Origin: Chromatiaceae bacterium
Lineage (GTDB): Bacteria; Pseudomonadota; Gammaproteobacteria; SZUA-140
NCBI GenBank assembly: GCA_003232725.1
Contig: QIJH01000043.1
Location: forward strand, 1 to 32,163
Direction: 5' to 3'
Length of the DNA: 32,163 nucleotides
In this document: piece after piece, positions 23,019 through 32,163 of the stretch
How the letters are laid out: the number at the start of each line of letters is the position of its first letter
Position numbering within the stretch: position 1 is the first letter of the stretch
The notes under the pieces: generated by a model
Told to the model about the DNA's origin: nothing
Databases searched by the model: none
Seen by the model: only the letters and a program-made list of their open reading frames with translations
Program-made: the position numbers and the translations under genes

Positions 23019-24191
23019 TTACCAAGACAAGAGCCGATCCAATATATAATCAGCCGATAGTCGTTCTTGCTCCAAACGGGTATTACCATGAACCCCATCT
23101 CTGATTTCCTCGAACACCATTCGCTCGGTCTCAGTCAGATACTCCGGCAAGCCTGAATAAGAATCAGGCTCTTCCACCATACGCTTACTATGACTTAAGA
23201 GCGTATCCCGATCCATCAGCAGGCTTTCAACGTGAGACTGATGTTGCCTCGCTTGCGACAGAAACAGAAAACCCCAGCTGTCCAGATCCCCCCAATAACC
23301 AACCCGTTTTTGGCGTAACCAGTGCGCTGCCATCCAGGCCAAATTTCGGCCACCGCCAATGACAGCCATCGTGTTGGGCAACGCAGGCAAGGCATAACCC
23401 GATTGATCATTTTCCACCACAATAAGACGCTCTCCAGGTAACGGGATTGAAAGCAACGTCTCGGTAGGAATCCGCAAAATGGAAACGCCGCCCATCGCTT
23501 GTGTTGTTGTAGGACAAAGCGGCCTGACCAAGAGCCAGTCGCGAGGAACCTCAATACAGTCCAGCCATGCCATTAAGCCGCCATGCTCACTGATTGCGCC
23601 ATCATGCAAAACATCCAGCAACGGAGTAATAAATGACTGATGAGTCTCCATAAACTTGGTATCCACACCGATAATCGGCATGGCGCGCAGGTAACCACCG
23701 CGTCCCATCCCTTGGGATAATTGAGGCAAGAGTTGAGCGATCATCTGCGCCTCATCCAAGCTCAAAGACTCTAGCTTTTTGAGTTGTTTAATCAGCACAG
23801 AGTAAAGTTCCTGGCTTACATCCAAAATAGGGGAGATACGTTGTTGCCACTGCTGGCTGCGCTTTTCAGCATCACCACCGATGAATTCGATCAACACCTG
23901 GATCGCGCCAAGAGTTAACTGTGATGGCACACGTTTCTCACCCAATTGGGAATATTGAATCTGTTGCCAAGTCAGTTGACCTTGCTTAGGCCATGCCTGC
24001 CAGGCATCGATAAACGCGTGGAATCCGGCCAGATCATCCAGCGCCTGCCTGCCTGAAGGGGGTCGAAGATTGATGGTAATGGGGAACGGGCGCTCACCCA
24101 AAAGCCGTTTTCTCAGATGCTGAGCATGATCCCACTCTGATGTTCTCAGCCGGGCTCTCACTTCGTCCGGCAATAAACCCCAGTTTTTCAT
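23019..24191 (-). CDS. jetD: Wadjet protein JetD (Toprim nuclease)
   Basis: This 390-aa protein is of the DUF3322/DUF2220 family. The N-terminal part (about 1-200) is the DUF3322 arm region. The C-terminal Toprim domain has its acidic residues in place: Glu260 (LIVVENDQSG) and Asp302/Asp304 (YWGDLDSWGF). In Wadjet systems JetD cleaves plasmid DNA after the JetABC motor has extruded it into a loop. The gene overlaps the jetC reading frame by 4 nt (ATGA), as is typical of coupled translation. It looks full-length and intact. It is the last gene of the Wadjet operon, and relic DNA begins immediately after the stop. Confidence 0.93.
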   Translation of the reverse strand: MKNWGLLPDEVRARLRTSEWDHAQHLRKRLLGERPFPITINLRPPSGRQALDDLAGFHAFIDAWQAWPKQGQLTWQQIQYSQLGEKRVPSQLTLGAIQVLIEFIGGDAEKRSQQWQQRISPILDVSQELYSVLIKQLKKLESLSLDEAQMIAQLLPQLSQGMGRGGYLRAMPIIGVDTKFMETHQSFITPLLDVLHDGAISEHGGLMAWLDCIEVPRDWLLVRPLCPTTTQAMGGVSILRIPTETLLSIPLPGERLIVVENDQSGYALPALPNTMAVIGGGRNLAWMAAHWLRQKRVGYWGDLDSWGFLFLSQARQHQSHVESLLMDRDTLLSHSKRMVEEPDSYSGLPEYLTETERMVFEEIRDGVHGNTRLEQERLSADYILDRLLSW

Positions 24192-26542
24192 GCGACGGTG
24201 TCCAACGCGACCCCCATCGATTGTGCCTCGTTCTTGATCTTATGCTGACGATGCTGTGCTAACTGGCGATCAATCTCTTCCCAGGTGACTTCACAGAGAT
24301 GGCTCTCATGGGTGCTGCTATTGCGCTCGGCAATCAATAACGAACGGGCAGACTCGCGAGCCAGATTAAGGTTTTTGTAGGGGGTGATCAGGTTGACATG
24401 AATCTTTAACTCCTGGAATACCCGCAACACCCGCCGACTCACCGCCTCCGCCGTATTGGAGAAAGCCTCATCTAAAAACACCGTACTATAGACAGGACGG
24501 TCGTATCCATCCGGCGTCAACACATAAGCCAAACTTGCCGCCACGATGGTGCCGGCAAACGACTCTTTCTCGCCGCCAGACTTACCACTGGAAGAGTGCA
24601 ACACATCCCGTACGGCACCATTTTGGGAATCCAGTTCCTCGGCAAAAAAGGAGAGCTGAAAGCGGGGGTCGAGCAGTCGCTGGCTCTCCAGTGTATTTGC
24701 CGTCGCTGGATTGCTGGCTTTATCCAGCAGTTCAATCACCAATTTAAGCTGCTGAAAACGAGCCTCATCATCGTCGCTATCCTGGCCCAGTACACGCGTT
24801 AATTGGCGATTGAATTCATCCACATGGGGATATCTATCCCTATTAGTGCGAAGCTTCAAGTGACTTCCCTGACGAAATTCGGTGCGCTTCAGCACCCGGT
24901 TGATCGTATCGATACGGTCGTTAATCTCTTCCCGCTCTGAATCCATACTGGCGCGTATTCCTGCCAGGGATTGCAGCGCGCACTTGGTCAAACGTGCCTG
25001 AAACTGCTCCACCAACATAGGCAGCCCTTCCTGCTCAAGCTGCAACAGATGTTCAAGATACTGGGGCAGGCTTCTCATGTCGGCCCCCCACTCTGCGGCG
25101 ACCACCTCCCATCCGGTGCGGAACGAGGACATGATGCCGGTGGCGCGGTTTTGCGCAGACTGATGTTTGCTGTTTACCTTCTCTAATTCACTCGCAATAG
25201 CGTGCCGCTGCTGCTGTTCAACGGCAGCCATGCGATCAATATCCTGCACATCCAGTTTAGCCACTCTTTTTTGTAGTGCTGCGCGGACACCATCCGCTAA
25301 TCCGGCTGCTGCCACACGATTGGCCTTTGCCAGTTGCAGCTGCACTTCTGCCTGCCTGTTTTCAATCCTCCCTTCTGATTTTTGCGCTACATCTTTATCA
25401 CCCTGAATCGCCTTAAGCTTTTCCTTTGCCTCATCCCATGCCTGCTGTGCCTTTTCTAAATCACTGCCAGCGCGAGTCAGTCTATCAAGCACCGCCTGAG
25501 TCTGTTCGGCCTGGTGCTGCCAACGGGGCACATCGATTTCATCCCACTGAACCTCAGCAAGTTTTTGCCATAAACGAACACTAGACTGACAATGATCATG
25601 GTTTTTCCGGGCAACGCTTACCGCTTTATCAAGCAGACCTATATGAGTTTTTAATGCCCGTTCATCTTGTTTAAGAATTGCTAATCTGGACTTGTTCGAA
25701 AAACCTAATTGCCAGCTACGCCGGTTATCAACCGGTGTCCTGTCATTTTTATTAAAGCGCCCCTTTTCATATTGAAACAAACCTTCTCGCGTCATTGAAA
25801 AAGGGGTTTCATTCAGCGTTTTTGCTGAGTCAACACAGTGAAGGTCTGACCGTGCGAGATAATGCTTGAGCCATTCTCGATAGGGGTGATCCAGCCACGC
25901 TAACTTTTTAAGATAACCATCGGCTTTAAATTGCGCCTGTCCCGATACTTCTGATGCGACCTGAACGGTGACATTCAATCCGGTATGTTGATCATTCAAC
26001 CAGTGAGTCACCAGCCGATAACAATCCTCGGGCACAATTAACGCGGTTCGACGCCCGCCAAGCGCCCTTTCGATTGTCCCATGCCATGCGTGCTGATCTT
26101 GTTTTACATCGACTAACTCACCAACAAACATCAAGCTGTCTCTATCAAGCGCCAGGCTCTCAACAATATCGTTTCTTAGCTTTTGGTAATTAAAGTCTAT
26201 GTTTGATCCTGGGTGCGCCTCTATTCCTAAAATCTGTTTCTGTAAAATCTCAAGCTTTTCTTTTACCTCATACAACTTGCGCCCCGCCTCTGTCAGCGCA
26301 TCGATAACAGTATCCGCCTGGTCTTTAAAAGAGAGCTGCATACTCTGTACTTGCTTTTGATTTTCCACAAACGCGCTTTCACTCAGCGCATCATCGAGGC
26401 CGGCCTCTCTTGCATCTTTCTGGTATTTTCCCGCCGCGCTACTCACCTCACCTAAACGGCGTTTCGCCTGTTCCCATTTATCCTTAGCCACTTCGACTCG
26501 GTCACCACCTGCCTGAACATAATCAGCATGGCGCTGTTGCAT
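24188..26542 (-). CDS. jetC: Wadjet protein JetC, C-terminal fragment (SMC-like ATPase, coiled coil and Walker B head)
   Basis: The fragment has about 784 aa from ATG 26542. Residues about 1-60 and 270-620 are long charged coiled coil (for example KDKWEQAKRRLGEV) around a hinge-like middle. The ABC head half follows: signature SGKSGGEKESF (Ser656-Glu659) and Walker B STVFLDEAF (Asp692, Glu693). It lacks Walker A, which is on the upstream fragment in the other frame. The two fragments together make about 1,120 aa, a normal JetC length, so this is one gene interrupted by a +1 frame change at about 26,523-26,560. AGG lies 8 nt before ATG 26542, so re-initiation as a separate chain is possible but unproven. 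Confidence 0.85.
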   Translation of the reverse strand: MQQRHADYVQAGGDRVEVAKDKWEQAKRRLGEVSSAAGKYQKDAREAGLDDALSESAFVENQKQVQSMQLSFKDQADTVIDALTEAGRKLYEVKEKLEILQKQILGIEAHPGSNIDFNYQKLRNDIVESLALDRDSLMFVGELVDVKQDQHAWHGTIERALGGRRTALIVPEDCYRLVTHWLNDQHTGLNVTVQVASEVSGQAQFKADGYLKKLAWLDHPYREWLKHYLARSDLHCVDSAKTLNETPFSMTREGLFQYEKGRFNKNDRTPVDNRRSWQLGFSNKSRLAILKQDERALKTHIGLLDKAVSVARKNHDHCQSSVRLWQKLAEVQWDEIDVPRWQHQAEQTQAVLDRLTRAGSDLEKAQQAWDEAKEKLKAIQGDKDVAQKSEGRIENRQAEVQLQLAKANRVAAAGLADGVRAALQKRVAKLDVQDIDRMAAVEQQQRHAIASELEKVNSKHQSAQNRATGIMSSFRTGWEVVAAEWGADMRSLPQYLEHLLQLEQEGLPMLVEQFQARLTKCALQSLAGIRASMDSEREEINDRIDTINRVLKRTEFRQGSHLKLRTNRDRYPHVDEFNRQLTRVLGQDSDDDEARFQQLKLVIELLDKASNPATANTLESQRLLDPRFQLSFFAEELDSQNGAVRDVLHSSSGKSGGEKESFAGTIVAASLAYVLTPDGYDRPVYSTVFLDEAFSNTAEAVSRRVLRVFQELKIHVNLITPYKNLNLARESARSLLIAERNSSTHESHLCEVTWEEIDRQLAQHRQHKIKNEAQSMGVALDTVA

Positions 26543-27536
26543 CACCTGCCTGGCGACTCAGCTCAGCCAGCTTGTGACGAACAGCCGCCAATTCCTGTTC
26601 AATTTTCACAATCCGTTGCTGCCACAAGCCGGCATAAATCTCACCAAAATAGATCGAGAGTCCATCACGCTCTGCACTCAATGATTCAATCTGTCGTTGA
26701 CACTCATTCAGCGTATTCTCAATGTCAGGCAGGCCATTAAGCTTCTCATGCTGACTGCGCGCATCCAATAACTGTTGATGCGTCGCCACCAAATCATCAA
26801 ATTCACGCACGGCACTTCGTGCATCTTCACGAATGTTATTGGGTTCAAGCACAAGATCACGAATCAGCGTGGTCAGGTCATCAATCTTCTTTAATCCCAA
26901 TGCACGTGACAGTAAATTGGGCGCATTACGGTTATCCATGTGCAGACAGACACGATAATAAGCCTGGTAGTCATTGAAGGCGTCAAACGGTGCGATTAGC
27001 GGGTCATCACGCAACACCTTTTTCAGCTGCCTGGCCTCTCCCTCACCAAACACCTTCAATAGCTCTTCCAGACTCAGATTGCGCTTTGCCACGAGATAGA
27101 TGCGCTTAAAATCAGCCGCCACACTAGTCGGTTTGGTATTCCAGAACATGGCCGCGAGGGTGATCACTGAACCATCATCGGCCTGGTACATGGCGCGCAA
27201 CCCGGAGACCACGGCACCTTCACGCTTGTAGTTGGTTTTTGTCTGGGCACCGTCATGGCTGGTACCATGACTGCCGCGAATATATGAGACGAGGGAACGA
27301 TCACTACGATCTCCCTGAGCGGCCGCCATATTGAAGGAGGCCTTGCTGCTCAACAGCAGCGCCATCAGGCCATCAATCAATGTCGACTTGCCTGCGCCGT
27401 TATCGCCGGTAATGAGGGTGCCTTCAGGATCGATACGCGCCGTATGCAGCCCGTGAAACGAGCCCCAATTACAGACGGATAGTTCCGCCAGACGAATCTG
27501 ACCACAGCTAAAGAGTTCAGAGGTCATATTGCTCAC
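26523..27536 (-). CDS. jetC: Wadjet protein JetC, N-terminal fragment (Walker A head and start of coiled coil)
   Basis: The fragment has 337 aa from a GTG that overlaps the jetB stop by 4 nt (GTGA). It has the SMC/Rad50-type Walker A GDNGAGKS (44-51) preceded by NWGSFHG, as in SbcC-like ATPases, and a coiled coil starts at about residue 245. It ends out of frame (DATAPC, then stop). Skipping one base in AGTCGCCAGG would continue the coil as LSRRQVMQQRHADY in the frame of the next fragment. This half binds ATP; the composite ATPase needs the signature and Walker B from the other fragment. If the lesion is real, the system may be inactive unless the two chains reassociate. Confidence 0.88.
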   Translation of the reverse strand: MSNMTSELFSCGQIRLAELSVCNWGSFHGLHTARIDPEGTLITGDNGAGKSTLIDGLMALLLSSKASFNMAAAQGDRSDRSLVSYIRGSHGTSHDGAQTKTNYKREGAVVSGLRAMYQADDGSVITLAAMFWNTKPTSVAADFKRIYLVAKRNLSLEELLKVFGEGEARQLKKVLRDDPLIAPFDAFNDYQAYYRVCLHMDNRNAPNLLSRALGLKKIDDLTTLIRDLVLEPNNIREDARSAVREFDDLVATHQQLLDARSQHEKLNGLPDIENTLNECQRQIESLSAERDGLSIYFGEIYAGLWQQRIVKIEQELAAVRHKLAELSRQAGDATAPC

Positions 27537-28300
27537 AGTGTCACATCCTCAAGCTCTCCCGCTAGCGACTGGTATTCCGCCAATATCCGCTCCAGGAACT
27601 CGGCACTCACCACATAGCGAATCACCGGCGTAATCTCCAGGCGCTCATCATCACCTCTCACCGGACTCAACAGTTTTTTCTCTTTCATCTTGGCAATGGC
27701 ACCGCTCAACTTGCGGCGGTCACTGCGATTGCTATTGGTCAGCGGTAAAAAAGGAGCCAGCTGAGATTCGATTCGCTCAATATCGATAATCACCTGCTGC
27801 TCACCGACACTTTGACGCTCCTGATAATGTTTTCTTAACACCAGCAACAGCAGGGTATCGTATAGGGAGAGCGTCCGGCGGCTAATCAGTGCTGAGTGCT
27901 CTTCTTCGTCCTCGAAGTCGGCTTCGTCCTGCTGTTGAAGCAGAAGCGCGACACCTGCAGTCGGCTCTATCAGCAAGCGCAGATACATATCAGCCAGATG
28001 ATCTTCAATCAAGGCGCGGTGCTGACATAACAATTCATATATCTGTGGTTTGGCACGAGCCAACACCACGCCGCTGCGCATGAGTTCAACCAGCGCACGG
28101 CGAAGCGCCGGGGAAAAACGGCCGTTGTCTGCAGCAGAGCTTGTCGCATTATCATCAACGCCGCCTGGCAACAGGGACTCATCAACGGCGATCTCACCCT
28201 CTGCATCAGCAACTAATTCACTCTGCTGCTCTCCGCTCGTCGCCGCCAATCGATCAAAAAAACTTGGCCCAGTGTCTTCAATATCTGGGGAATTGCTCAT
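27533..28300 (-). CDS. jetB: Wadjet protein JetB (DUF4194, KITE-like)
   Basis: This 255-aa protein is of the DUF4194 family. The first 75 residues are acidic and low in structure (TSGEQQSELVADAEGEIAVD). The winged-helix part follows (LRRALVELMRSGVVLARAKP, then LYDTLLLLVLRKHYQER) with the late segment IAKMKEKKLLSPVRGDDERLEI. JetB proteins are the KITE-like accessory subunits that bridge the kleisin (JetA) and the SMC-like JetC, comparable to MukE. The start overlaps the jetA stop by 4 nt and its stop overlaps the jetC start by 4 nt, so all are translated from one message. No defect is seen. Confidence 0.92.
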   Translation of the reverse strand: MSNSPDIEDTGPSFFDRLAATSGEQQSELVADAEGEIAVDESLLPGGVDDNATSSAADNGRFSPALRRALVELMRSGVVLARAKPQIYELLCQHRALIEDHLADMYLRLLIEPTAGVALLLQQQDEADFEDEEEHSALISRRTLSLYDTLLLLVLRKHYQERQSVGEQQVIIDIERIESQLAPFLPLTNSNRSDRRKLSGAIAKMKEKKLLSPVRGDDERLEITPVIRYVVSAEFLERILAEYQSLAGELEDVTL

Positions 28301-29754
28301 ACTGCCACCTCGGTAAGATCCTCCGGGAACATCTCGACACTTAACTGGTAACAGGGAATTGCCGCCTGAATATGGATTCCGCTTCGGTCTTTCACCGTTA
28401 CCTGTTCTTTCTCTTCCAGCAGCGCCGCGCCAACATTTTTTGCCACCCGCAGATAGGCCACCAACTCTTCCAGCCCTGCTTCAACCGCGTGTTGTTGAAT
28501 CATACCCGCCACCGTCAACGGGCCATTGTGATGCAAGGTATCGCGCATCCGTGCCGCGACTTCAATCATTTTAACACTCTGCAAACAATCCAGCATCGCA
28601 CTACTCGGATCCGAACTGTTTCCCTGTACCTGAATATTGTGAATATCCAGCTGCTCTTCAGGCACCCGCAAACAGATACTATCGATAGAGCCAATTTTGA
28701 CACTGCCACTGCTCAGCGTCAAAGGAATCGCTCTGTCGAATGACAGATCACTCTCATTGAATCGAACCGCTATCTGCTCCAGCTGGCGCAACAGATTCTC
28801 CACCGCAAGGTTTTCCATATGGGCGCCACTTTCAATATAAGACCTTAAACTCTCTTCCGTGCGACGACGCACCTGAAAGACCCGCTGACTCTCCCGCGTC
28901 AACTCACGCACCAAATGGCCAAGAAAACGCGCCTCTTCCGTAGAGAGGTGTTCCGCAGCCGAGCGGCCTAATATCGAACGCAGCTGCTCGCGGAATTCCA
29001 CACTGCGGTTTTGATCGCACAGTAGCTGAAAGAAGCTATCAAATGCCCGCCCGGCATCCGAATCCGCTAACATTTGCTCTTGCTCAAGCAGCGCCAGAAT
29101 CACATCGCCCCGGCGCCCACCAGACTCGATCATCTGCACCCTGAGGCGCTGGTCAAGGCCGCGAATATCATCCTCGACACGGCGAAAATCACCGGTCAGC
29201 ACCGATGCCAATTGATACACCTCCCGAATACGCTCCCGTTCCTCTACAGCGGAAAGCTCATGCATCACACCACCCAATAGCTGATCGATTTCACGCTGCA
29301 AGGCTGCTTTTTTATGCTCCAGCAACGTAATACGTTCTTGAGGGTTGGGGCTTAAATCGACGGCAAGCTGAGTCACCGCATCTTGCACAATGCGCAGATG
29401 GGAGGCGGAGGCATTGACCTCGCGCTGTTCCAGGTTTTGGCAAAAACGCAAAGCCACATCACAGGCATCGGTGGCGGTCAGCTGGTCATCCAGTTCACGC
29501 AGCCAGCCAGCCTGACTCCATTCACGCAGATAGGCACCCGCCCCTTTTTCCACCTCCCGTCCATCGTCCGCGAGGCGATCCAGCTCGGATTGCAACACCA
29601 CCCGCGCACGCCCAAAGGGAACTTCATTCTCCTCCCGAAACAACTCTGTGATAAACGCCATAATCAATGGAGCATTCGCTGCCCGCAGCAGGCGCCAGGC
29701 GGCATGCTCGGATTGCAGACGATGATAACGGGAGTGGAAGGCTGGCAGGCTCAT
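28297..29754 (-). CDS. jetA: Wadjet protein JetA (DUF3375, kleisin)
   Basis: This 485-aa protein begins in the DUF3375 style (FHSRYHRLQSEHAAWRLLRA, then PLIMAFITELF). The central part is long helix (ITLLEHKKAALQREIDQLL, RTEESLRSYIES) and the C-terminal part has the conserved domain around TVAGMIQQH and ELVAYLRVA. JetA is the MukF-like kleisin that closes the JetC ring and helps load DNA in the anti-plasmid machine. The ATG follows the stop of a 51-codon upstream ORF by only 3 bp, and the gene overlaps jetB by 4 nt. It is intact and of normal length. Confidence 0.93.
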   Translation of the reverse strand: MSLPAFHSRYHRLQSEHAAWRLLRAANAPLIMAFITELFREENEVPFGRARVVLQSELDRLADDGREVEKGAGAYLREWSQAGWLRELDDQLTATDACDVALRFCQNLEQREVNASASHLRIVQDAVTQLAVDLSPNPQERITLLEHKKAALQREIDQLLGGVMHELSAVEERERIREVYQLASVLTGDFRRVEDDIRGLDQRLRVQMIESGGRRGDVILALLEQEQMLADSDAGRAFDSFFQLLCDQNRSVEFREQLRSILGRSAAEHLSTEEARFLGHLVRELTRESQRVFQVRRRTEESLRSYIESGAHMENLAVENLLRQLEQIAVRFNESDLSFDRAIPLTLSSGSVKIGSIDSICLRVPEEQLDIHNIQVQGNSSDPSSAMLDCLQSVKMIEVAARMRDTLHHNGPLTVAGMIQQHAVEAGLEELVAYLRVAKNVGAALLEEKEQVTVKDRSGIHIQAAIPCYQLSVEMFPEDLTEVAV

Positions 29755-29757
29755 TGA

Positions 29758-29913
29758 CTAAATGTACTTCAACCACGTCCGCTCGGTAATGATCACCACC
29801 GGCATACCTTTTTCTTTTAGCTTTATGGCTTTTTCGATTTTTCTGCCGTGACTGGAAAAGCGCCCATCACGACTAAAGCCACGAGTAAGAGGTTGATTGC
29901 AGGAATCTAACAT
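29758..29913 (-). CDS. Small 51-aa protein resembling the C-terminal half of a BRCT domain
   Basis: A short frame has a strong ribosome site (AAGGAT, about 7 nt before ATG 29913). It ends with GRKIEKAIKLKEKG, then MPVVIITERTWLKYI. That pattern (Gly-x-Lys...Lys-Ala...Gly-x-x-Val-x-Ile-Ile-x-Glu-x-x-Trp) is like the last helix and strand of BRCT domains, including those fused behind DnaQ-type exonucleases. The N-terminal half of a BRCT fold is missing. It lies 13 bp after the exonuclease stop and 3 bp before jetA, so it is co-transcribed with both. It could be a leftover of an exonuclease-BRCT fusion or a small accessory peptide. The assignment is by eye. Confidence 0.6.
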   Translation of the reverse strand: MLDSCNQPLTRGFSRDGRFSSHGRKIEKAIKLKEKGMPVVIITERTWLKYI

Positions 29914-29926
29914 CGACAAATCCTTT

Positions 29927-30577
29927 TTAACAATTGACAGGTTGTTTGGAGATGTAATTTTGTAAAAATCGTTTCACCGCATTTTTCGGCGTCGCGGAGA
30001 GCTTCTGCATGAGTGAAAACGGTACATACTCAATCCGGTGCTCATCCCTAAGATGATCAACCATCTTAAGCCATAACTGCGCCGTCATCTGCGCGTCGGC
30101 CAGAGCACGATGAAACGTGCCATCATTGGGGATATTGGCATACTCCACCAAGGTGCCAAGCTTGTGATTCTCCGCCTGCTGATAAATTCGCCGTGCCACC
30201 AACATGGAACAAGCAAATTCCCCACGGCACTTGCGCTTAACTCTTTTCAGTTCGGCATGAAGAAAACGCCTATCAAAAGAAGCATTATGTGCCACTAAAG
30301 CTGCACCACCGGCAAAGTCAGCAAAAGCGGTCATCACTTCACCGCAGGACGCTGCTCTCTTCAGCATGGTGTTGGTGATACCGGTGTAATCCTCAATAAA
30401 AGCACTGATGCGCCTATCCGGATTCATCAAGCCCTGAAACTGGTCAACCACCGCACCCTGCTCAATCTTCACCGCGCCAATCTCAATAACGCGATCACCG
30501 TAATCGGGAGAGAGGCCCGTGGTCTCAAAGTCGAGAACGATGACGGTATTGGCGGAGTTAATGATACTGTGTGACAT
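29927..30577 (-). CDS. DEDDh 3'-5' exonuclease, DnaQ-like, at head of Wadjet operon
   Basis: This 216-aa protein has all DEDDh residues: Asp16/Glu18 (VLDFETTG), Asp102 (HNASFD), His156 and Asp161 (FHRALADA). The family degrades DNA or RNA 3'-to-5' with two metals; it resembles the epsilon-type exonucleases found alone or fused to BRCT, UvrC or DinG parts. Here the catalytic domain (about 10-180) is followed by a short basic tail (ATPKNAVKRFLQNY). A GGAAAGG stretch lies about 12 nt before the ATG. It is in the same direction as jetABCD with no room for a separate terminator, so it may work with or be co-regulated with Wadjet. A housekeeping repair role is the alternative. Confidence 0.88.
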   Translation of the reverse strand: MSHSIINSANTVIVLDFETTGLSPDYGDRVIEIGAVKIEQGAVVDQFQGLMNPDRRISAFIEDYTGITNTMLKRAASCGEVMTAFADFAGGAALVAHNASFDRRFLHAELKRVKRKCRGEFACSMLVARRIYQQAENHKLGTLVEYANIPNDGTFHRALADAQMTAQLWLKMVDHLRDEHRIEYVPFSLMQKLSATPKNAVKRFLQNYISKQPVNC

Positions 30578-30803
30578 ATCAATTTTATACCTTTCCGGCT
30601 AGCCTATGCATCACTAATCGTATCAAGGTTTCTTTCTGCCTTGGCCCGGATTTATAAATTAGAATTTCGCCGTTCATCGCTCTTTTTTCATCATCTTTAC
30701 TCTGGTTGCCACGTTGAAGCACGGGAATGAAATCCTATTGCGGGGTGTCTGGTATCGGCCATAAGCGGACGCTCATATGACAAAAACTATAGAAAAAATA
30801 TCA

Positions 30804-31220
30804 TTATTTGAAAGGGTTTAAAACGTTAACGCCAGTTCTTATAAAGTCTTTTTCATTTCGAGTGACCACAACCAAATCGTGAATAATGGCTGTTGCTGCA
30901 ATTTGTTTGTCAAGTGCGTGCTCATGGTGAGGGGAGCGTAACTTTCCCCATAACTGAGCAACGTCCTCATCAATGTCCAAAATATTATCGCTGTAATCGT
31001 TCAAAATTACGCGTATCCATTTCTCCAGTAAATTCGCCTGTTTTGTATCACCTCTATATCGAATTAATTCAATACCACGGCGAAGTTCACCTATCGTTAT
31101 TACGGACAAAAATAAGCTTTCATTGTTTTTTATTGCCGCTTTAAAAAAAGCTAAAACGCCTGCATTCGCTTTTTTCTTTTTACGAATTTCACTAAGTACA
31201 TTGGTGTCAATTAAATACAT
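30804..31220 (-). CDS. PIN-domain toxin (FitB/VapC family)
   Basis: The protein has 138 aa from ATG 31220 (MYLIDTNVLSEIRKK), the standard PIN start; an upstream in-frame start at 31271 would add a non-homologous leader. The acidic metal-binding residues are Asp5, Glu45 (TIGELRRGI) and Asp104 (ALDKQIAATA), with TRNEKDF (Asp125) completing the site. VapC/FitB toxins are Mg-dependent RNases. The frame overlaps the end of the antitoxin gene by 14 nt, the usual antitoxin-toxin arrangement. It appears intact. A 226-bp gap without a supported gene separates it from the exonuclease. Confidence 0.92.
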   Translation of the reverse strand: MYLIDTNVLSEIRKKKKANAGVLAFFKAAIKNNESLFLSVITIGELRRGIELIRYRGDTKQANLLEKWIRVILNDYSDNILDIDEDVAQLWGKLRSPHHEHALDKQIAATAIIHDLVVVTRNEKDFIRTGVNVLNPFK

Positions 31221-31440
31221 CAACGTTGCCAGAATCATCGACACGTTTAAAATCGTTATCTTCACCACCATTTGGCATTGCTGCTAATACCTGGGCAAAT
31301 GATTTTTTCTTCGTCCCGAGAAGCGCTTGTTTAAGGATTTCTCTATGCTCAGCTTCTGCACTACGCCCATGTTTGGCAGCGCGTAACTTTAAAGCCTTAA
31401 CAACCTCCGGGTCGAGGTCTCTCACTAAAAGCCTGGTCAC
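31207..31440 (-). CDS. Ribbon-helix-helix antitoxin (FitA-like)
   Basis: This 77-aa protein begins with a GTG preceded by GAGGTG. The N-terminus (TRLLVRDLDPEVVKALKLRA, then AAKHGRSAEAEHREILKQAL) is the FitA/Arc-type ribbon-helix-helix DNA-binding domain. The C-terminal 30 residues (FAQVLAAMPNGGEDNDF) are the toxin-wrapping tail. It would neutralise the adjacent PIN toxin and repress its own promoter. The palindrome at 31459-31470, 19 bp upstream, is a candidate operator. Confidence 0.9.
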   Translation of the reverse strand: MTRLLVRDLDPEVVKALKLRAAKHGRSAEAEHREILKQALLGTKKKSFAQVLAAMPNGGEDNDFKRVDDSGNVDVFN

Positions 31441-31458
31441 TATTACACCTCAAATCAT

Positions 31459-31496
31459 ATTGATATCAATGATAGCACAGGCTGATAATGAAGCAA
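31459..31496 (-). promoter_or_regulatory. Candidate promoter and operator of the FitAB-like pair
   Basis: On the minus strand TTGCTT (31496-31491) and TATCAT (31474-31469) form a -35/-10 pair with 16-bp spacing. The perfect 12-bp palindrome ATTGATATCAAT (31459-31470) overlaps the -10 edge. This fits autorepression by the ribbon-helix-helix antitoxin. Confidence 0.45.
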
Positions 31497-31619
31497 GCAT
31501 AAATAGCTAAAATCATACGCTTTCGCTGGCAAAAACCTATATGTTATTAGAACTTAACCGAACATCCATCTCAAGAAACCCAAAAATATACATTTAATTC
31601 AACAAGTTAGTGTCTCTTA

Positions 31620-31804: not shown

Positions 31805-32163
31805 CTATAAAACACTACTATAATGCAGTGTTTTATGAGGTGTCATGCGCATCACATCAAGACCATCCAGCAACCAGCACCCAAAGCGCTTGGCGGGGCA
31901 GGCTCTTGAGTTGCTGACCCGTCAGCGTCACCACCTCGTCTTCAGCCTTGCGAGGCCATTTGAAACGAGCCTTTTCCAAGCGCTTTTGCCACAGACAAAA
32001 TCCATTGCGCTCCCAGTACAATATTTTCACCCTATCACGGTGACGATTGCAGAAGACAAACAACTGCGCTGAAAAAGAATCCTGTTGCAGCACCGTCTCC
32101 ACTAACCCATTGATCCCTTTTCTGAAATCAACAAACTCCCGACAGAGGTAAACACAAGGTAGC
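31805..32163 (-). pseudogene. tnpB: IS66 accessory protein TnpB, frameshifted (5' end beyond right edge)
   Basis: The main frame reads VYLCREFVDFRKGINGL, then LFVFCNRHRDRVKILYWERN and GFCLWQKRLEKARFKWP, the clear signature of IS66 TnpB. After LTGQQL it departs from the family and stops at 31857. The expected C-terminus (WLLDGLDVMRMTPHKTLHY) is found in another frame from 31876 down to TAG at 31805. A segment of about 30 bp appears inserted between the two. The protein would be non-functional. Confidence 0.8.

Follow-up and report, generated by a model that had tools for sequence, protein, structure and literature searches.

Does the exonuclease gene that stands directly ahead of a Wadjet operon in a Chromatiaceae genome belong to that system as a further component, or does its position have some other origin? 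We addressed this question on a stretch of 32,163 nucleotides (contig QIJH01000043.1, hereafter the window), in which an initial annotation had placed a complete 3'-5' exonuclease and a 51-residue BRCT-like mini-ORF upstream of jetA. The annotation had suggested that the exonuclease could degrade the ends made by JetD as a logical fifth component and that the mini-ORF probably sets jetA translation or, alternatively, that an exonuclease-BRCT gene had decayed next to the operon.

The Wadjet operon and its upstream exonuclease

PADLOC type I models match jetA, jetB, jetC and jetD in order within one operon (Table 1). As in other type I Wadjet systems (JetABCD), the four genes follow the usual order with overlapping ends, and their best PADLOC matches are to type I. 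The window departs from these systems in that a 14-bp deletion splits jetC and the operon is preceded by a foreign gene and a scar. The deletion, defined by blastn against seven close orthologues (L025, L032, L034, L036, L037, L067 and L075) and absent from all of them, shifts the jetC frame, such that an intact frame is not found in every Wadjet subunit; the GTG/ATG restart of the second part overlaps the first stop (24188-27536, minus strand). A homopolymer sequencing error was rejected as the cause of the break, since 14 bp are missing. The deletion may inactivate the Wadjet system of the window; alternatively, the two JetC half-proteins could still assemble, because the coiled coil is the probable site of the break.

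Table 1. Features of the window around the Wadjet operon, in order of transcription
Feature	Coordinates	Strand	Evidence
FitA-like antitoxin gene (77 aa), first gene of a VapBC/FitAB toxin-antitoxin pair	31207..31440	-	Pfam FitA-like_RHH 5.5e-17
PIN-domain (VapC-like) toxin gene, 155 aa	30804..31271	-	Pfam PIN 5.5e-14; NCBIfam VapC 2.8e-12
45-aa RhuM-Fic relic: ~26 N-terminal and ~25 C-terminal aa kept, middle (~290 codons) deleted	30585..30722	-	tblastn/blastn vs G323 RhuM
Stand-alone DEDDh (DnaQ-like) 3'-5' exonuclease gene, intact, 216 aa	29927..30577	-	RNase_T 4.2e-36 (Pfam)
51-aa mini-ORF, read as a TerB-BRCT family scar: ~15 probable N-terminal residues joined in frame to 38 C-terminal residues	29758..29913	-	PHROG 3989, family HMM, tblastn
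Last ~50 bp before jetA, common to relatives with other DNA further upstream; 3' end of the old BRCT gene	29755..29804	-	Sequence identity to relatives
jetA (DUF3375), 485 aa, intact	28297..29754	-	PADLOC JetA 2.8e-211
jetB (DUF4194), 255 aa	27533..28300	-	PADLOC JetB 5.6e-95
jetC 5' part (Walker A half), early end by frameshift	26523..27536	-	PADLOC JetC 8.9e-136, profile positions 5-333
14-bp deletion site in jetC	26533..26534	-	blastn vs seven close orthologues
jetC 3' part (Walker B half), other frame	24188..26545	-	PADLOC JetC 2.9e-280, profile positions 338-1104
jetD (DUF3322 + JetD_C), 390 aa	23019..24191	-	PADLOC JetD 2.1e-167

The exonuclease gene is complete, as first annotated, and the coordinates and gaps given for the two genes upstream of jetA (13 and 3 bp) are right. 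Besides its RNase_T match, the product matches the PolC exonuclease structure 2p1j (1e-30) and retains all five DEDDh residues (D16/E18, D102, H156 and D161) within the motifs DFETTG at 16, HNASFD at 97 and HRALAD at 156. It shares with other stand-alone DnaQ-like DEDDh exonucleases (RNase_T, PF00929) a single catalytic domain of ~210 residues bearing these five residues, and differs from them only in its unusual neighbourhood; orthologues on Vibrio and Azoarcus plasmids carry the annotation '3'-5' exonuclease'. Its dN/dS is about 0.13-0.18 in comparisons with relatives and, judged from sequence, both the exonuclease and jetA are under purifying selection. An origin as one fused exonuclease-BRCT gene was rejected, since the orthologues of ~60% identity stand alone with no BRCT gene nearby; a search of IMG/VR contigs returned no close relative of the exonuclease. 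Family membership and intact motifs predict that the protein is most likely an independent 3'-5' DNA-trimming enzyme and, by analogy, in acting alone it would most likely resemble its many relatives without Wadjet. Further upstream, an IS66-like ORF or fragment, recognised by eye, lies at the window edge (31857-32162); together with the FitAB/VapBC-type pair it fits a mobile defence region.

Part of the text of a review of Wadjet was consulted, and there no exonuclease is named as a part of the system (PMC10586767). The titles and abstract openings listed in literature searches describe no exonuclease partner of Wadjet, which is no proof of absence.

Two gene remnants on either side of the exonuclease

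The mini-ORF begins with an ATG at 29913, 13 bp past the exonuclease stop and behind a plausible ribosome site (AAGGA), and runs for 51 codons to a TAG (29760-29758) lying 3 bp ahead of the jetA ATG (29754), with which it shares its frame (TAG TCA ATG). Shuffling the 169 bases gives an ORF of this length ~3% of the time, which is not rare by itself, and the mini-ORF was judged real because of its homology to a BRCT family and not because of its length. Residues 14-51 match PHROG 3989 over positions 255-292 of 296 (E=1.1e-10). In tblastn the same stretch is found in proteins of phages K139 and Kappa annotated as BRCT (47%) and in a BRCT protein of a Hymenobacter plasmid (50%, 7e-6). An HMM of the TerB-BRCT family, built from 28 members, matches the mini-ORF at 2.9e-13 over positions 177-214 of 216. 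Once the PHROGs and tblastn results had given this family, we dropped the idea that the interval is a non-coding exonuclease flank plus jetA leader. The term BRCT-like is thus correct as to descent, though Pfam misses the match: Pfam, NCBIfam and PADLOC gave no useful match to the mini-ORF, and there was no Pfam BRCT hit.

The opposite end of the mini-ORF likely comes from the same family as well, although this is not certain, as it rests on about 15 residues. Over its first 16 residues (MLDSCNQPLTRGFSRD) the mini-ORF resembles the N-terminal end of one TerB-BRCT member (MFDDDGQPLNRLYGRK), and two of 3183 background N-termini score as high. Over its last 38 residues the alignment to the C-terminal end of this family is free of gaps. 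The family, TerB-like/BRCT, is one of temperate phages and plasmids (PHROG 3989; phage K139 orf2), and 'TerB-like' is a label that we take to refer to its N-terminal part. A complete BRCT domain (roughly 80-90 residues) is not present, the homology being confined to those 38 residues. Because family members measure 181-301 residues and the BRCT core is missing between the two ends that the mini-ORF keeps, the best reading of the mini-ORF is a BRCT gene whose middle was deleted in frame, and not a working BRCT protein; its product would be at most a 51-residue scrap. An AlphaFold2 model gave one helix and no sheet at a pLDDT of 60, which, for a single-sequence prediction made without an alignment, is weak evidence either way.

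In phage K139 the gene of the BRCT family is found just downstream of the cI repressor gene (L182:1718-2623), and members are present in 31 viral contigs (L187-L217). These viral relatives have no exonuclease, RhuM or jetA nearby. When the family HMM was run on the ORFs of the Wadjet loci, no ORF besides the mini-ORF reached E=1, and thus an intact BRCT gene was found near none of the other Wadjet loci examined.

A second remnant lies on the other side of the exonuclease. In the related genome G323 an intact RhuM-Fic gene of 341 residues, matching the PADLOC candidate PDC-S23 at 4e-132 as well as Pfam RhuM and Fic, stands 6 bp upstream of the orthologous exonuclease. The window has a RhuM-Fic sequence in the corresponding place, but retains 45 of ~341 residues: tblastn with the intact protein gives 65% identity over residues 1-26 and 76% over residues 316-340, and blastn across the deletion gives 80% and 87% on its two sides. 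The locus therefore holds three genes with an internal deletion, i.e. the RhuM-Fic relic, the BRCT scar and jetC. The earlier alternative of an exonuclease-BRCT gene decayed beside the operon holds for the BRCT part; the two are separate genes, the exonuclease is intact and RhuM-Fic upstream has likewise decayed.

Distribution of the exonuclease among Wadjet loci

With a DEDDh profile we searched 76 loci with jetA, 66 of them with at least 1 kb upstream, and found no exonuclease on the flanks of Wadjet loci outside the clade of the window. Because this profile failed to detect one divergent RNase_T protein close to a plasmid-borne Wadjet, PF00929 matches were also located in 72 Wadjet genomes. 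Among the matches listed, comparison of coordinates by eye places one directly upstream of jetA in the window alone, and one within ~6 kb in the window, G008 and NORP100 but in no other genome; random placement over the 72 genomes would yield 0.09 and 1.04, respectively. Of 397 other Pseudomonadota genomes, 22 contain orthologues of the exonuclease (56-64% identity); four of these 22 carry Wadjet on another contig, and in 29 exonuclease neighbourhoods RhuM is found at the G323 locus only and jet genes at none. Across the independent Wadjet loci covered, the exonuclease thus does not recur next to jetA. Since the other loci examined have no DEDDh gene directly upstream of jetA, and intact jetABCD operons exist with no adjoining exonuclease, its proposal as a general fifth component of Wadjet is not supported. 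On the P. aeruginosa plasmid pBJ86 (L129) a 3'-5' exonuclease lies ~7 kb from jetA; it was set aside as a Wadjet neighbour, since it is inside a CBASS-like cluster adjoining Wadjet.

Within the clade, the association is true but clade-limited. Four exonucleases of at least 87% identity were found, all in genomes with the window's Wadjet clade, and three of them are no more than ~6 kb away from jet genes. The window and G323 come from different families; identity between them is 72% for DnaQ but reaches 90% for JetA and 88% for the exonuclease. Synonymous divergence of the exonuclease and jetA agrees (0.336 vs 0.362 in one comparison, 0.455 vs 0.482 in the other). Because DnaQ differs more between families than do the exonuclease and the jet genes, and the latter match in synonymous divergence, the exonuclease and jet genes probably moved horizontally, and together.

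JetA of at least 78% identity is present in seven genomes, i.e. the window's own, G008 (SZUA-128), G323, NORP100 (G386), L032 (G385), L034 (G387) and G221 (81%, partial). These relatives are draft assemblies of many contigs, mostly metagenome-derived, and some of the rearrangements described here (that of G008 above all) could be artefacts. In G323 the intact RhuM-Fic/exonuclease pair is on a contig other than that of jetA, and jetA itself is preceded by ~48 bp of exonuclease 3' DNA and MLDSHKLLAERIRLKYI with its stop. In NORP100 a relic made up of the final 29 codons of the exonuclease and the start of BRCT persists upstream of jetA, and ~5 kb beyond jetD there are a degraded RhuM and an intact exonuclease. 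In G008 jetA is preceded by an N-terminal RhuM relic together with the final 15 residues of BRCT, and the exonuclease, with the RhuM C-terminus, is convergent with jetD; an inversion of jetABCD would explain this arrangement, which spans two contigs that are not joined. NORP100 and G323 have the junction of the exonuclease with the BRCT start upstream of jetA, and G008 and NORP100 have it next to the exonuclease gene. L032 retains only ~20 bp of the common jetA leader, and the assemblies of L032, L034 and G221 contain no close exonuclease anywhere. The exonuclease-carrying genomes of the clade thus show four different arrangements, no single one being conserved together with intact jetABCD across the clade, and in G323 and L032 jetABCD is intact with no adjoining exonuclease. 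Downstream of jetD in NORP100 (L132:6320-11467) we also noted three ABC three-component-like genes (recognised by eye), followed by the degraded RhuM and the exonuclease and, after these, a bioA-like gene. Two NORP100 contigs (L036 and L037) both start with the jetA end, as if there were two Wadjet copies or strain variants.

Given these arrangements, we consider it quite unlikely that the exonuclease is a working accessory of Wadjet in this clade, co-transcribed with jetABCD and degrading JetD-made ends. Such a role would suit the tight spacing upstream of jetA, the presence in genomes of the clade of all four exonucleases found at 87% identity or more, the matching synonymous divergence and the low chance that even one genome would have RNase_T directly ahead of jetA (the 0.09 above). 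However, orientation and distance vary among the carriers (upstream of jetA, convergent beyond jetD, 5 kb beyond jetD or on another contig), orthologues of ~60% identity live without an adjoining Wadjet, and outside the clade no Wadjet locus examined has such an exonuclease neighbour. The window combines an intact exonuclease with a broken jetC, and in L032 and L067 the jet operons are intact with no exonuclease alongside, which argues against an obligatory partnership. The linear ends could also be cleared by general host nucleases.

Probable erosion of a mobile cluster, and the jetA leader

We regard it as likely that the window holds the partly decayed remnant of a cluster of RhuM-Fic, DEDDh exonuclease, TerB-BRCT and jetABCD that was passed horizontally, as a single stretch, among a small number of gammaproteobacterial families. 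The order given would be the ancestral one, reconstructed as the simplest reading because the relatives keep different pieces of it; the full intact cluster was found in no genome. After its transfer as a unit, the cluster would have eroded differently in each lineage: in the window genome RhuM-Fic and BRCT would have lost their middles and jetC its frame, with the exonuclease surviving in a mobile defence neighbourhood that is otherwise in decay. At the sequence level this decay is supported by the BRCT scar, which appears to match both ends of one family, and by the 45-residue ORF, which matches both ends of RhuM-Fic. An assembly accident, or one recent insertion of genes that lack a shared history, could also bring these genes together, and the genome is indeed a draft of 257 contigs with the IS66-like fragment close by; we regard this as highly improbable, as the exonuclease-BRCT-start junction recurs in independent assemblies of different species (NORP100, G323 and G008). 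A further reading, in which RhuM-Fic, exonuclease and TerB-BRCT once served one Wadjet lineage as working accessories, seems unlikely to us; it would make the cluster an anti-plasmid operon of seven genes in which translation of jetA was coupled to that of BRCT, and would have the exonuclease continue to aid Wadjet in trans where it is left. The decayed cluster offers a concrete gene order to seek in intact form, and illustrates that a gene placed suggestively beside a defence operon can be left over from a shared mobile neighbourhood and not be a new component.

The relatives also bear on the sequence just before jetA. Identity to the window in this leader is 45/50 for G008, and over the last 20 bp 18/20 for G323 and 17/20 for L032, falling to chance level further upstream. 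Since these last 20-50 bp are kept while the DNA upstream differs, the start signals of jetA probably lie within them. A scan of the minus strand for consensus promoters (29600-31600) reported no site, a result that says little.

Whether the mini-ORF now serves as a leader, such that ribosomes finishing it would re-start at jetA 3 bp on and so set jetA expression in the window genome, can be answered only tentatively, and we lean against it. The proposal is plausible for the window, where the mini-ORF has a good ribosome site ahead of it, the frame of jetA and a stop 3 bp before its ATG, and jetA itself has no clear ribosome site. It is not conserved, however: in L032 the stop is missing and the frame reads on into jetA, and in NORP100 the ORF is broken before reaching jetA. 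TACATT in the shared leader could instead serve as the -10 element for a leaderless start, although it was not called in the consensus scan. The BRCT stop codon, with its 3-bp spacing, seems ancestral, as it is also present in G008 and G323, and coupling of jetA translation to this stop may likewise be an ancestral trait.
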